From: Microbacteriaceae bacterium
GTDB taxonomy: Bacteria; Actinomycetota; Actinomycetes; Actinomycetales; Microbacteriaceae
Assembly (NCBI GenBank): GCA_024645175.1
Contig: JAHEGB010000010.1
Coordinates: 1 to 34,398 of the forward strand
Direction: 5' to 3'
Length of the DNA: 34,398 bases
The notes under the pieces are model-generated. The model ran no database searches and was not told the origin of the DNA. It saw only the letters and a list, made by a program, of their open reading frames with translations. Below are positions 5,338-8,920 of this stretch, piece by piece. The position numbers were made by a program, and so were the translations under genes. Numbering within the stretch: position 1 is the first letter of the stretch; the number at the start of each line of letters is the position of its first letter.

Positions 5338-5364
5338 AATAATGTCAAACATTTCTTTGGGGGA
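5335..5364 (+). promoter_or_regulatory. Possible -10 (TAGAAT) and Shine-Dalgarno for the small-gene cluster
   Basis: TAGAAT at 5335-5340 overlaps the argG stop. A purine-rich GGGGGA at 5359-5364 lies four bases before the ATG at 5369. Together they support transcription from here and the choice of 5369 rather than the in-frame ATG at 5342, which would lie upstream of the predicted transcript start. No clear -35 was found. Confidence 0.35.
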
Positions 5365-5368
5365 AATA

Positions 5369-5623
5369 ATGACAATTAGGAACACCTACAAATTCGCTAT
5401 AGCGCTTGCGTTGATTTTCACAGCTGTTGTCGCGTCCACTCCGTCTGCATCGTCTACGCCCACTTCAAGCGAAGCTGGATTAGCCGGAAACGAGTGTTCA
5501 TTAGTTGAAGAGGTTTACCGAGACCTTTCTTGCCTTGCTACAGGAATTGACGGCGGGGCTGGTGGCGGGGGCTTTGGTGGTCGCCTTTGCAGCGGCATGT
5601 GCATGCTGTCAATTCGAATCTAG
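5369..5623 (+). CDS. Small exported Gly/Cys-rich peptide, unrecognised
   Basis: An 84-residue ORF with a strong GGGGGA ribosome binding site. Residues 1-8 are basic (MTIRNTYK). Residues 9-22 form a hydrophobic core (FAIALALIFTAVVA), followed by a Ser/Thr/Pro-rich stretch, so a Sec signal peptide is likely. The predicted mature part contains four cysteines and the run GIDGGAGGGGFGG, ending in LCSGMCMLSIRI. The stop TAG 5621-5623 lies three bases before the ATG of the first tandem copy, with AGAAG between, which suggests an operon. I do not recognise the family; a bacteriocin-like or signalling peptide is possible but unproven. A second frame (5505-5774) over the same bases encodes a hydrophobic Ala/Val segment, so a frameshifted or alternative product cannot be excluded. 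Confidence 0.5.
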   Translation: MTIRNTYKFAIALALIFTAVVASTPSASSTPTSSEAGLAGNECSLVEEVYRDLSCLATGIDGGAGGGGFGGRLCSGMCMLSIRI

Positions 5624-5626
5624 AAG

Positions 5627-5920
5627 ATGCCAAAACTCATTGGATGGTTCGTCAGGGCCCTGTTTCCAAACAGTGGGCTCGCAAATCGCCCTGTCAAAGT
5701 TTCTCGCAAATAATATTTGGCGCTCCAGAGAGAAATTGCCGAATCGAGCAAATACTCAATGGGTGAAACAGTGAAACCTGAGATGTTCTACAAAGATGGC
5801 AACCTAAGGCCCAGTGGAAATTCGAAAGTATGGAACCCGGTCTTACACGACTCAGTCCAATTGTTGAATTACGGCAAACGCCTAGATGGAACAGACATCG
5901 AAGAATCGAAAAACGGCTGA
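5627..5920 (+). pseudogene. Tandem small-protein copy 1, interrupted by an in-frame stop
   Basis: Copy 1 of three tandem paralogues. From ATG 5627 it reads 28 residues (MPKLIGWFVRALFPN...VKVSRK) and then meets TAA at 5711-5713. At the equivalent position copies 2 and 3 have glutamate codons (SREEYLALK, SPKEFVALK). The frame continues homologous after the stop (YLALQREIAES...TVKPEM...GKRLDGTDIEESKNG) to TGA 5918-5920, so a single nonsense change best explains it. Intact, it would be 97 residues, ten more than its siblings. Re-initiation at TTG 5717 could give a 67-aa C-terminal fragment. The function of the family is unknown. Confidence 0.6.
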
Positions 5921-5921
5921 C

Positions 5922-6185
5922 ATGGCAGACCCAATTCGTTGGATCGCCATGGCGCTTTTTCCGAACAGCAAAATAGCTACTCGGCCTGTGAAAGTTTCCC
6001 GAGAAGAATATCTCGCGCTTAAGCGTGAAAATGCTGAATCCAACCAAAGCGCGATGGGTGACACCGTTAAACCGGACATGATGCGCAGAGCTCAGTTCAG
6101 CGACTTCAACCATGACTCCGTCGAGTTTTTGAATTCTGGCAAGCGCCTCGATGGCACGAACATCGAAGAATCGAAAAATTACTGA
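5922..6185 (+). CDS. Tandem small protein, copy 2 (87 aa), unrecognised family
   Basis: An 87-residue protein beginning MADPIRWIAMALFPNS. It shares with copy 3 the core 'RPVKVS..E..ALKRENAES' and 'AMG.TV.P', and with copy 1 the C-terminal 'GKRLDGT.IEESKN'. There is no clear signal peptide. The first 14 residues form a short amphipathic hydrophobic helix (IRWIAMALF) and the remainder is charged and helical, suggesting a small membrane-surface or binding protein. ATG 5922 follows the copy 1 stop by one base (TGA-C-ATG), and the same junction recurs before copy 3, so the copies are probably translated by coupling. The upstream neighbour is an exported peptide. An immunity role can only be guessed. 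Confidence 0.6.
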   Translation: MADPIRWIAMALFPNSKIATRPVKVSREEYLALKRENAESNQSAMGDTVKPDMMRRAQFSDFNHDSVEFLNSGKRLDGTNIEESKNY

Positions 6186-6186
6186 C

Positions 6187-6450
6187 ATGGCAAACCCTTT
6201 TCGCTGGATCGCAATGGCGCTGTTTCCTAACAGTCGTCTGGCAAATCGCCCTGTTAAAGTCTCGCCTAAAGAATTTGTAGCCCTGAAGCGTGAGAACGCA
6301 GAATCAAATAAGCGTGCGATGGGCGAAACTGTGCCCTCGGGCTTACTAGGCAAGTACATTCCTTGGAAACCTTTGGGAACGAGCTCTCGATACAAGAAGA
6401 CCGGCAAGGGCCTCGAAGTTAACAATCTTGAAGACCCTTCAGAGTTTTGA
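6187..6450 (+). CDS. Tandem small protein, copy 3 (87 aa), diverged C-terminus
   Basis: An 87-residue paralogue of the preceding ORF, identical in length. Residues 1-50 follow the shared pattern (MANPFRWIAMALFPNS, RPVKVS, VALKRENAES, AMGETV). Residues 51-70 diverge (SGLLGKYIPWKPLGTSSRYK), and only the framework 'GK.L...N.E' remains from the tail of copies 1 and 2. Divergence concentrated in one segment suggests that part contacts a variable partner; this is inference. ATG 6187 follows the copy 2 stop by one base. The stop TGA 6448-6450 is followed after six bases by the promoter of the aldo/keto reductase gene. I do not recognise the family. Confidence 0.6.
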   Translation: MANPFRWIAMALFPNSRLANRPVKVSPKEFVALKRENAESNKRAMGETVPSGLLGKYIPWKPLGTSSRYKKTGKGLEVNNLEDPSEF

Positions 6451-6468: not shown

Positions 6469-7392
6469 ATGACTATCTTTCGCGACACAATCGGCGACAT
6501 CGGTTTCGGTTCGATGTATGCCCAGTTCAATGGCATCGCCCTCGGCTCTGAAGAGGCCTACCAAGGCGTTTTGAGTGCATTGCATGCAGCCATGGATGCC
6601 GGTGTGACGTTCTTTGACACCTCAGACATCTATGCCTCAGCGTGGAACAAGTTTGGCGAGAACGAGCTAATGGTCGCTGATGCACTGCGCACCTGGAACG
6701 GCTCTTCAGCCGACAAAGCGAAAATCGTGATCGGCACAAAGGCTGGCATCACACGCAAGCCTGGTGAAGTCTGGGGTCGCAACGCGACGGTCGACTATCT
6801 TCTGCGCGCAGCCGAGGCATCTGCCGGCCGACTGGGAGTTGCAAAGCTACAGCTATGGCAACACCACCGACTTGACCCAAACCTAAAATTAGAAGAGCAG
6901 GTTCAGAACCTCGACGCTTTGCGCCAGCGCGGAATCATCGAACACCTCGGTGTTAGCAACTACAGCGCGAAGCAATTGCGCAGAGCCATCGAGATTCTCG
7001 GCACCCCTTCCGAAGGCGGAATCGTCAGCGTTCAGAATCAATTGAACCCGGTTTACCGTCAAGAACTTGACGTGCTCGAAGTTTGCGAAGAGTTTGGCAT
7101 TGTCTATCTGCCTTGGTCGCCATCAAAAGGCGTCAAAGATCTCGATTCGGTTTTCGCAACAATCGCTAAAAATCACCAATGCTCAACTCACGCAGTTGCG
7201 ATGGCCTGGTTGCGTTCACTCTCCCCATCGATCGTTCCGATTCCGGGAGTCACTCGCATCGAGACAGTTCTCGATAACGTGAGCGCCCTCAAGGTGACAC
7301 TCAGCGACGAAGAGCTATCTCAAATCGAGAAGTCTTTGCCGGCGACCCAACCCATGGATGCCGAACTGGTTACGGACCAACCAAAGAACTAG
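6469..7392 (+). CDS. Aldo/keto reductase
   Basis: A 307-residue NADPH-dependent oxidoreductase with the (beta/alpha)8 fold of the aldo/keto reductase superfamily. The catalytic tetrad is visible: D50 and Y55 in FFDTSDIY, K91 in IGTKAG and H133 in QHHRLDP. The 'GVSNYS' strand and the C-terminal 'IPGVTRIETVLDN' cofactor loop are present. The 'QHR.DP' form resembles the YajO/AKR13-like groups that reduce small aldehydes, but the substrate cannot be read from the sequence. It is probably cytoplasmic. It starts from its own leaderless promoter and ends convergently with the XRE regulator, with CTAG 7389-7392 forming both stops. Confidence 0.9.
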   Translation: MTIFRDTIGDIGFGSMYAQFNGIALGSEEAYQGVLSALHAAMDAGVTFFDTSDIYASAWNKFGENELMVADALRTWNGSSADKAKIVIGTKAGITRKPGEVWGRNATVDYLLRAAEASAGRLGVAKLQLWQHHRLDPNLKLEEQVQNLDALRQRGIIEHLGVSNYSAKQLRRAIEILGTPSEGGIVSVQNQLNPVYRQELDVLEVCEEFGIVYLPWSPSKGVKDLDSVFATIAKNHQCSTHAVAMAWLRSLSPSIVPIPGVTRIETVLDNVSALKVTLSDEELSQIEKSLPATQPMDAELVTDQPKN

Positions 7393-8654
7393 CGGGCGTC
7401 AAGCGAGGCCGCGATTGGGCTTGCGTTGAGCCCAATCAAATCAGTCGCGGCTTTTAGGCAAGCCAGTGCCGATTCGGCCTCGCCTAGCTCTTCATAGATA
7501 GCCGCGAGCTGACGCCAGGCATAAGCCTCTGAACGGGTGGCTCCGCTGGCTTCGAGCAGGTTTCGAGCCGACAGCAAGGCACTCTTGGCGGCCCCGCTGT
7601 CGCCCAATCGAACATGGGCATTGGCTTGCAAGATCAATGCTCCAGCAAGGTCGCTGCCCTGCAATTGCGATAACGCCGAAGCGAAGTAGTTTTCTGATGC
7701 CGACGAGTTTGCTCGCATTGCTTCGACGAGACCAAGCACAGCTCGGCAATTTGCCTGCATAACCTGAGCATCGGCCATTGAGGCGATTGCGATGCACTCG
7801 AGCAACTCTTGCTCTATGAAATTTAGATCTGCATTTTCGTCTTGCAAGAGATACCAGGCATGGGTTTGCTTGAGCGCTGCAAGTTTCATGGGTCGCTCCA
7901 TTTTCTCGAGCAATGCAAGAGCGCTCTTAGAAAGCACGGCTGCTTCTTCGAACTTTGATTCGGCGGCTAGAACATATGACCTTGACCAGAGTTCTTGCAC
8001 TTTAGTTCGATCTTCGGCGTTTGAATCGTTCAATGCCGGGTCGGTCAGTTGTCTTGCTCGAAGCATGTCGCCGGTTTCGCAATAGACACCCGAGAGAGTA
8101 GCCCTGAGTTCTGAAACACTCGCTGAGTCAACGTCGCTTTGGTTTGCAAGTTCGCGAAGAGCCCTCTCTCCCACTTCGATTGCTGTTGACACCTGAAGTT
8201 GATTCGCCGCGATTCGACAAATAGCAATTGAGCTATCGAGTCGCGTCTGATTTGACGCTTCGAGATTGTTTAGGCAGGCCTCTTGAAAGTTCATGGCCGA
8301 TTCAAAATTGCCTTCAACCTCGGCAATCAATCCGTGAACAAAGTTGGCTCGCTCATCGGTCGAGTCTTTGGCAAGCAGTTCTTTGGCTTGCTTTTTGTTG
8401 CCGGTGCGAATCGCCAATTCGGCTTCGAGAGCAATCGCCTGGGCCTTGGTCTGCCGCTTTTGAGCAGGTGCCGAAACACTAAGCCGAGAGGCCAGTTGCC
8501 GAGACATTTTGACGCTTGCCTGGCGCTTGCCAGATTCGATCAGCGAGAGGTAACTCTCAGAGCAGATGCCCTCAGAGGCCTCGGCCAAGCTCATGCCGAG
8601 GTTCAGTCGCGCAGTCTTGAAGGCCCTGCCCTGAGCCGAATCGATTGTGACCAT
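7389..8654 (-). CDS. XRE-family regulator with C-terminal TPR domain (RRNPP-like)
   Basis: A 421-residue protein. Residues 8-60 form an XRE/Cro helix-turn-helix (FKTARLNLGMSLAEAS, then CSESYLSLIESGKRQ, the typical recognition helix). From about 70 to the end it is all-helical with repeated A/L/Y patterns (for example AYAWRQLAAIYEELGEAESALACL near the C-terminus), as expected of tetratricopeptide repeats. This is the architecture of peptide-responsive regulators such as PlcR, NprR and Rgg, though TPR-containing XRE proteins exist that bind no peptide. The ATG has a TAGACT box six bases upstream and no Shine-Dalgarno. Divergent from it, 76 bp away, is a 39-aa exported-looking peptide gene, and three TTGACAA repeats lie between. 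Autoregulation and control of the peptide gene are the natural inference. Confidence 0.85.
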   Translation of the reverse strand: MVTIDSAQGRAFKTARLNLGMSLAEASEGICSESYLSLIESGKRQASVKMSRQLASRLSVSAPAQKRQTKAQAIALEAELAIRTGNKKQAKELLAKDSTDERANFVHGLIAEVEGNFESAMNFQEACLNNLEASNQTRLDSSIAICRIAANQLQVSTAIEVGERALRELANQSDVDSASVSELRATLSGVYCETGDMLRARQLTDPALNDSNAEDRTKVQELWSRSYVLAAESKFEEAAVLSKSALALLEKMERPMKLAALKQTHAWYLLQDENADLNFIEQELLECIAIASMADAQVMQANCRAVLGLVEAMRANSSASENYFASALSQLQGSDLAGALILQANAHVRLGDSGAAKSALLSARNLLEASGATRSEAYAWRQLAAIYEELGEAESALACLKAATDLIGLNASPIAASLDAR

Positions 8655-8660
8655 GTCGTG

Positions 8661-8666
8661 AGTCTA
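8661..8666 (-). promoter_or_regulatory. -10 box of the XRE/TPR regulator
   Basis: On the minus strand TAGACT stands six bases before the ATG (8654-8652). A TTGTCA, the complement of the middle TTGACAA repeat, lies 16 bases upstream and could be the -35. The repeat array therefore overlaps the regulator's own promoter, consistent with autoregulation. Confidence 0.5.
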
Positions 8667-8672
8667 TTTCGC

Positions 8673-8699
8673 TTGACAAATTTTGACAATCTTTGACAA
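8673..8699. repeat. Three TTGACAA direct repeats at exact 10-bp period, putative operator
   Basis: TTGACAA occurs at 8673-8679, 8683-8689 and 8693-8699. The start-to-start distance is 10 bp each time, about one helical turn, so all copies face the same side of the DNA. The array fills the space between the divergent XRE/TPR regulator and the small-peptide gene and overlaps the regulator's predicted -35. TTGACA is also the sigma-70 -35 consensus, so one copy may act as a -35 element, but three phased copies look like a multi-site operator. Confidence 0.6.
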
Positions 8700-8727
8700 T
8701 ATCGTGTCATCGATGCCGTTAGGGGGA
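8700..8727 (+). promoter_or_regulatory. -10-like box and Shine-Dalgarno of the small-peptide gene
   Basis: TATCGT at 8700-8705 abuts the last TTGACAA repeat, and AGGGGGA at 8721-8727 precedes ATG 8731. No TTGACA copy sits at the ideal 16-18 bp from TATCGT. This fits a weak promoter that needs an activator bound at the repeats. An alternative pairing is TTGACA 8683 with TGTCAT 8705-8710 (16-bp spacer). Confidence 0.35.
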
Positions 8728-8730
8728 ATC

Positions 8731-8850
8731 ATGAAAAGGGTAAAGATGATCCTGATGACTGGAGCTCTGGCGATTTTGGTCTCATTGACCGCGATCACCA
8801 TTGCCCCAATGTCAGGCACCGGTGGCGCTCAGCCATGTTGCGGAATTTAG
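8731..8850 (+). CDS. 39-aa exported-looking peptide, candidate signalling pro-peptide
   Basis: A 39-codon ORF from ATG 8731 to TAG 8848-8850 with a strong AGGGGGA ribosome binding site. The N-terminus is basic (MKRVK), residues 6-25 are hydrophobic (MILMTGALAILVSLTAITIA), and a short polar tail PMSGTGGAQPCCGI follows. This is the shape of a Sec signal peptide with a ~14-residue releasable tail, as in Phr/PapR/NprX-type pro-peptides. A canonical lipobox is absent, and the paired cysteines near the C-terminus are notable. It is divergent from the XRE/TPR regulator and shares the TTGACAA array with it. A terminator-like hairpin follows at 8885, making this a one-gene transcript. Alternatives are a single-pass small membrane protein or a bacteriocin precursor. 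Function is inferred from layout only. Confidence 0.6.
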   Translation: MKRVKMILMTGALAILVSLTAITIAPMSGTGGAQPCCGI

Positions 8851-8884: not shown

Positions 8885-8920
8885 AGCGGGGCCGAAGTCG
8901 ACGTCGGTCCCGCTTTCTTC
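8885..8920 (+). terminator. Intrinsic terminator after the small-peptide gene
   Basis: AGCGGGGCCGA (8885-8895) pairs with TCGGTCCCGCT (8904-8914) through 11 pairs including one G-U, with an 8-base loop. A T-rich tail (TTTCTTC) follows. It lies 35 bp after the peptide stop and before the SDR operator. Confidence 0.6.

Follow-up and report, generated by a model that had tools for sequence, protein, structure and literature searches.

Introduction

Peptide quorum sensing through intracellular tetratricopeptide repeat (TPR) receptors has been described essentially in Firmicutes. In the PlcR-PapR and NprR-NprX systems of the Bacillus cereus group, a regulator that combines a helix-turn-helix (HTH) with TPRs is encoded beside a small exported pro-peptide, and the C-terminal part of that peptide is the ligand. 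Here, we analyze a locus of the same layout in an actinobacterium. It consists of an XRE-family HTH-TPR regulator gene and a 39-codon open reading frame (ORF) divergent from it, and it lies in a stretch of 34,398 nucleotides that we call the window (contig JAHEGB010000010.1 of assembly GCA_024645175.1, Microbacteriaceae bacterium, positions 1 to 34,398). The locus differs from PlcR-PapR and NprR-NprX in its host phylum, Actinomycetota, in having nine predicted TPRs, in the cysteine pair (CC) that usually ends the peptide tail, in its mostly divergent gene order, and in its low sequence identity (~15% to PlcR). We consider it likely that the two genes form an RRNPP-like pair of exported peptide and TPR receptor that regulates its own promoter.

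The locus also shares features with other described systems. In the streptococcal Rgg-SHP and ComR-ComS pairs, the pro-peptides are hydrophobic and very short and are often encoded divergently from the regulator, and ORFs of 28 to 36 aa in sister clades of our family are SHP-like. Unlike Rgg, the window regulator matches no Rgg-type model. Rap proteins of the Bacillus Rap-Phr systems form a TPR superhelix of similar geometry, and the repeated signal units that we describe below in a Micrococcaceae-like family resemble multicopy signal precursors; Rap has no DNA-binding HTH, whereas the window regulator does. The TPR-like regulators of the NsdA family in Streptomyces share the actinobacterial HTH-TPR architecture. 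The extracellular Streptomyces peptide imported by BldK has no established link to the gene family described here.

Large surveys of RRNPP systems have been limited to Firmicutes and viral genomes (PMC10075063, PMC9765709). Signaling in Actinomycetota has been reviewed in terms of enzyme-made small molecules, and the parts of a review of actinobacterial quorum sensing (PMC4748050) that a keyword search reaches name no intracellular peptide receptor of this type.

Results

We collected homologues of the window regulator by regulator sequence alone, so that the flanking regions provide independent evidence. A peptide gene was scored where an ORF of 25 to 90 aa lay <=500 bp upstream of the regulator and its product contained a hydrophobic stretch and had CC among its 14 C-terminal residues. 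A CC-type ORF was present in 98 of the 113 regulator loci, compared with 2/113 downstream flanks, 1/229 distal windows (1 to 3 kb further out), and ~1.1/113 shuffled flanks. The 113 loci are not independent of one another, and the pairing spans many families in the regulator tree. At least 5 of the 15 misses carry a CC peptide elsewhere or one with a longer end (L008, L026, L031, L077, and L102). Among 49 additional loci, drawn mainly from other families of the class, a CC ORF was present in 33, although a few of these ORFs are doubtful. Genes in GC-rich loci were called by codon scoring, since naive longest-ORF calling there gave spurious antisense genes. In annotated records, the short ORFs are labeled hypothetical proteins. 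No homologue of the regulator was found in phages.

The original prediction had named two ways in which it could fail at the small ORF: absence beside regulator homologues and decay by frameshift. The first is answered by the counts above. For the second, we compared the ORF with that of the nearest relative, a Rhodoluna record (L002) with 84% identity. We found 6 synonymous and 2 nonsynonymous changes and no frameshift decay. The ratio of nonsynonymous to synonymous substitution rates (dN/dS) is 0.11, and by this codon comparison the small ORF is under purifying selection. The window peptide ends in CCGI and that of L002 in CCAI. The pair L003/L019 was left out of the dN/dS comparison because a length difference caused it to misalign. 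Thus far, the locus has a hallmark of RRNPP(A) systems, an adjacent small ORF of export type conserved as a unit with the receptor. The further expectation that this ORF is always divergent and always ends in a CC tail held in most loci only: in one family (genus code g120 and its allies; L104 to L113 and L117), the peptide gene lies upstream on the strand of the regulator, and CC is the commonest ending without being universal.

Several loci carry other arrangements. In L204, L208, and L209 (family f38, probably Micromonosporaceae), two different CC peptides flank the regulator, one on each side. Tandem regulator homologues occur in L147, where each of two regulators is paired with a CC peptide of its own, and in L146, where several are fused in one long frame. 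Plasmid-borne Streptomyces regulators have a CC peptide downstream that is annotated only as a hypothetical protein (L180:7511-7726, L181:7446-7661, and L179:9130-9294). In Microbacteriaceae bacterium MWH-Ta3, a second TPR protein, apparently without an HTH, is encoded 7 bp after the regulator (L047:6270-7355), a Rap-like arrangement.

To compare rates of change along the pair, we used 59 Streptosporangiales loci. Mean pairwise identity fell from 88% in the HTH to 71% in the neighboring CopD/CtaG and 53% in the TPR domain; over the seven residues that precede CC, it was 10%. Because only loci with a CC-ended tail entered this set, the constancy of CC within it is partly due to selection of the loci. 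In a partial Mantel test given CopD distance, TPR distance (r=0.35, p=0.0005) but not HTH distance (r=-0.10) was correlated with tail distance. When ranks were used and the correction was quadratic, the effect was smaller over all 59 loci, at r=0.12 (p=0.0017) for the TPR domain and r=0.05 (p=0.15) for the HTH, and strong in 30 Nonomuraea loci, at r=0.42 (p=0.0003) and r=0.18 (p=0.012), respectively. For the signal region of the peptide, too, a correlation with the TPR domain was seen (r=0.26). By these distances, the tail co-varies with the TPR domain and not clearly with the HTH. Such a pattern would be expected of receptor/signal specificity, unlike that of a fixed metal ligand or a structural peptide.

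We then considered the tails of other clades. In a Micrococcaceae-like family (code f6; the family name is a guess), whose regulators are 16 to 18% identical to the window regulator, exported precursors contain 2 to 5 copies of GNWPDPM or GNWPDRF with spacers. Precursors with multiple copies of [VI]GNWPD[PR][MF], divergent from XRE-TPR regulators, were seen at L119 to L124, L159 to L163, L168, and L169, and they look like multicopy pheromone precursors. Other Actinomycetota classes have divergent SHP-like ORFs in the upstream flanks of L233 to L239 (28 to 36 aa with the chosen start) that end in ANWPHH, ANWPHVP, ANWPKH, AKWPWG, SFPWGGT, GFPWPK, or FPGP. Family f38 joins both types of tail, as in ...DWPGMCC and ...NWPTMCC. 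In the Streptosporangiaceae clade L188 to L191, the peptide gene and its signal region are kept and CC is lost (e.g., ...QHSAWNGPW). Streptomyces-like loci of family f37 (L218 to L221 and L223) have, divergent from the regulator, an exported ORF that starts with GTG and whose tail lacks cysteine and is often rich in His or Arg. The distribution of tail classes agrees with the regulator tree, on which it requires 6 changes compared with 20.5 in shuffles. The evidence for the non-CC tails is weaker, because the ORF filter was lenient and had no separate control. Among the open-licence papers searched, we found no description of CC or NWP tails, and no open-licence full text used the motif NWPDPM in this sense.

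The regulator resembles known peptide receptors in its predicted structure. An AlphaFold2 model made with 45 homologues has a mean predicted local distance difference test score (pLDDT) of 90.7 and places TPR-type helix pairs, fitting nine TPRs, after the HTH; the TPR register was set by hand from the motif. Its structural matches include Rap-CSF (4gyo; Z 22.8), NprR (Z 21.6), and AimR (Z 18.9), and Foldseek matched it to PlcR (E 8e-6, ~15% identity). In a profile search of PDB sequences, PlcR was the best nonsynthetic hit (E=4.7e-16, over the HTH and first TPRs). The model thus bears out, as a prediction, the earlier expectation that the C-terminal half folds as a TPR superhelix. This superhelix is similar to Rap, NprR, PlcR, and AimR, and also to unrelated TPR proteins, and with the HTH it is the receptor architecture of RRNPP(A) systems. 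The NsdA-family model (NCBIfam NF053720) did not match the window regulator and matched 32/45 homologues weakly (best E=2.9e-9). E112, R147, and W223 are invariant in the 45 homologues. We considered these residues as a universal CC-binding triad and dropped the idea because conservation of E112 and R147 does not extend to other CC clades.

The layout of the locus is given in Table 1. It agrees with the original prediction in the sizes of both genes and of the gap between them, in the signal-like N terminus, hydrophobic core, and short tail of the small ORF, in its strong ribosome-binding site and own terminator, and in the three phased repeats. The TTGACA starts are at 8673, 8683, and 8693, an exact 10-bp period corresponding to one helical turn, and similar repeats are present in the relatives L002, L004, and L006. 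In the draft genome (~81% complete), the exact paired TTGACAA repeat occurs in a single place, the regulator/peptide promoter. This points to local autoregulation, and we dropped the idea of a genome-wide regulon of TTGACAA pairs. A site with one mismatch (G000:C10:5963) was also set aside: it is palindromic and has another small regulator-like gene as its neighbor. This palindrome, TTGACAAACTTTGTCAA at G000:C10:5963-5979 (L158), is flanked by a small HTH-like gene on one side and a membrane-protein gene on the other and is probably the operator of another regulator.

Table 1. Features of the regulator/peptide locus in the window
Feature	Position	Strand	Basis
XRE-TPR regulator gene, 421 aa	7389..8654	-	ORF; HTH_3 match, E=1.3e-7; several weak TPR model matches; AlphaFold2 pLDDT 90.7
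HTH DNA-binding domain, residues 6-57 (predicted)	8484..8639	-	Domain match and AlphaFold2 model
TPR domain of nine helix pairs (residues 70-407) with a putative peptide groove	7434..8447	-	AlphaFold2 model
Intergenic gap between the divergent genes, exactly 76 bp	8655-8730
Three TTGACAA repeats, probable operator overlapping promoter	8673..8699	+	Sequence
Ribosome-binding site AGGGGG of the peptide ORF	8721..8726	+	Sequence; also kept in L002
Pro-peptide ORF, 39 aa, MKRVKMILMTGALAILVSLTAITIAPMSGTGGAQPCCGI	8731..8850	+	ORF call; conservation beside regulators; dN/dS ~0.11 versus L002
Basic start and hydrophobic core, residues 1-25, export-signal-like	8731..8805	+	Sequence; inference
Tail PMSGTGGAQPCCGI, candidate signal (whole or C-terminal part)	8806..8847	+	Position matches hypervariable tails of homologues
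Codons of the conserved CC pair	8836..8841	+
Intrinsic-terminator-like hairpin with T-rich tail, 3' of the peptide ORF	8885..8914	+

The host is a freshwater, Rhodoluna-like microbacterium with a draft genome of 1.29 Mb. Within its own genus, the regulator is patchy (9/67 genomes). Elsewhere in the window, at 5342-6450, a 93-aa secreted-type ORF with several cysteines is followed by 2 to 3 tandem related ORFs of ~70 to 100 aa (e.g., MARTSKNRKITDMANPFRWIAMALFPNS...).

Discussion

The evidence supports the RRNPP-type reading of this locus as a model, short of proof, in which export, processing, re-import, and binding are the steps that we infer. In this model, the 39-aa precursor would be exported through its signal-like N terminus and trimmed to a short peptide from the C-terminal tail, within PMSGTGGAQPCCGI. 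An oligopeptide permease (Opp) would re-import the peptide, which would then bind in the regulator's TPR groove. The regulator would bind the 10-bp-phased TTGACAA repeats and control both the peptide gene and itself, and the peptide would change this DNA binding. The draft genome has a complete Opp gene set: a substrate-binding protein, two permeases, a fused ATPase, and a second substrate-binding protein. The Streptomyces loci L052, L064, and L082 also have Opp ATPase genes close to the pair; another gene lies in between, and we judged the proximity likely to be synteny.

The CC pair probably serves as an anchor recognized by the receptor, and a replaceable one, since related clades use other tails. 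ComS/XIP has a conserved aromatic pair near its C terminus that is used much as CC may be here. The most concrete rival to peptide signaling starts from the same cysteines. Vicinal cysteines are plausible ligands of Cu(I), and the tail could bind Cu(I) like the CC pair of Cox17, with the regulator sensing the metal-loaded peptide and controlling copper genes. In Streptosporangiaceae (e.g., L029:6329-8922), CopC and then CopD/CtaG are encoded on the same strand directly downstream of the regulator, possibly as an operon that includes the targets, and a 48-bp gap is conserved in this arrangement in most Nonomuraea. However, no copper genes adjoin the pair in the window, nor do they in the g120-type, f16/f19, and Streptomyces loci examined, and among the clades covered the copC/copD linkage is confined to Streptosporangiales. 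In addition, clade L188 to L191 has lost CC with the peptide gene kept, and sister clades have cysteine-free NWP tails. Metal chelation also does not predict that tail and TPR domain diversify together while the HTH is conserved. Because other clades have other neighbors and sometimes no CC, we dropped copper as the general function, for which we regard it as very improbable.

A combination of the two ideas can be proposed, although we think it unlikely: CC-ended pheromones of a phylum-wide actinobacterial peptide-communication family might be switchable by redox state or metal, as dithiol, disulfide, or Cu(I) forms. This would fit the regulator-copC-copD operon of Streptosporangiaceae. If it is true, the receptor would read cell density together with oxygen or copper status.

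Export and processing bear on a second rival, in which the hydrophobic helix stays uncleaved in the membrane and sequesters or activates the regulator directly, with neither export nor re-import. The proteins are short and hydrophobic, and some have no clear cleavage site (the window peptide and L004 to L006). However, 62/68 CC peptides have an [AV]xA site 8 to 24 residues from the C terminus, compared with 61% in shuffles, and the median length remaining after it is 15. The window peptide has no classical AxA site; from its sequence, TIA/P and GGA/Q are possible cuts. The peptides vary mainly in the tail, and this would be extracellular if the N terminus acts as a signal peptide; the repeated GNWPDPM units are hard to explain with an anchor. 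We therefore hold a membrane-anchored partner to be less likely than peptide signaling, and in itself quite improbable. Least of all do we favor a regulator-controlled secreted antimicrobial, toxin, or precursor of a modified peptide (RiPP): small exported cysteine-containing peptides are common beside regulators in such loci, and two of the Streptomyces plasmid copies have biosynthetic-type genes in the surrounding region, but no conserved modification, immunity, or export gene adjoins the pair, neighbors differ between clades, and the predicted mature tails of ~6 to 15 residues co-vary with the TPR domain, so that this explanation is less likely too and has hardly any probability in our view.

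Several observations weigh against reading the locus as a peptide-signaling pair. Unrelated TPR proteins (LGN, APC/C subunits, and MalT) fit the regulator model as well as the peptide receptors do; thus, a protein is not recognizable as a peptide receptor from this fold alone. The window regulator gave no match to an RRNPP-specific model in Pfam or NCBIfam. On common descent with the known RRNPP receptors, beyond a shared fold, the PlcR profile hit stands on one side and these two findings on the other. E112 and R147 vary in some clades. Beside homologues L024, L025, L035, and L212 to L217, we recognized no peptide, and the Rhodoluna peptides L004, L005, and L006 have weak signal sequences. 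The regulator-copC-copD operon allows a copper role in Streptosporangiaceae, the one clade where copper is a serious competing explanation. Finally, the co-diversification of receptor and peptide that typifies RRNPP(A) systems was found in the partial Mantel test, while the site-level test was not significant: TPR columns tied to tail change were not enriched at ligand-facing groove positions (p=0.40). Therefore, we make no claim that specific groove residues co-evolve with the tail.

By analogy with the Firmicutes pairs, the system would be RRNPP-like in its working, and what appears new is the host phylum and the classes of tail. The recurrence of the pair across Actinomycetota suggests a widespread peptide-signaling family, apparently undescribed in the open-licence literature. 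The hypervariable tails suggest that it comprises many signaling types. Its peptides are also candidate signals for an old question, namely, which peptides the Opp systems of Streptomyces, such as BldK, import. A receptor/pro-peptide family in Actinomycetota would open a second branch of communication in this antibiotic-rich phylum.

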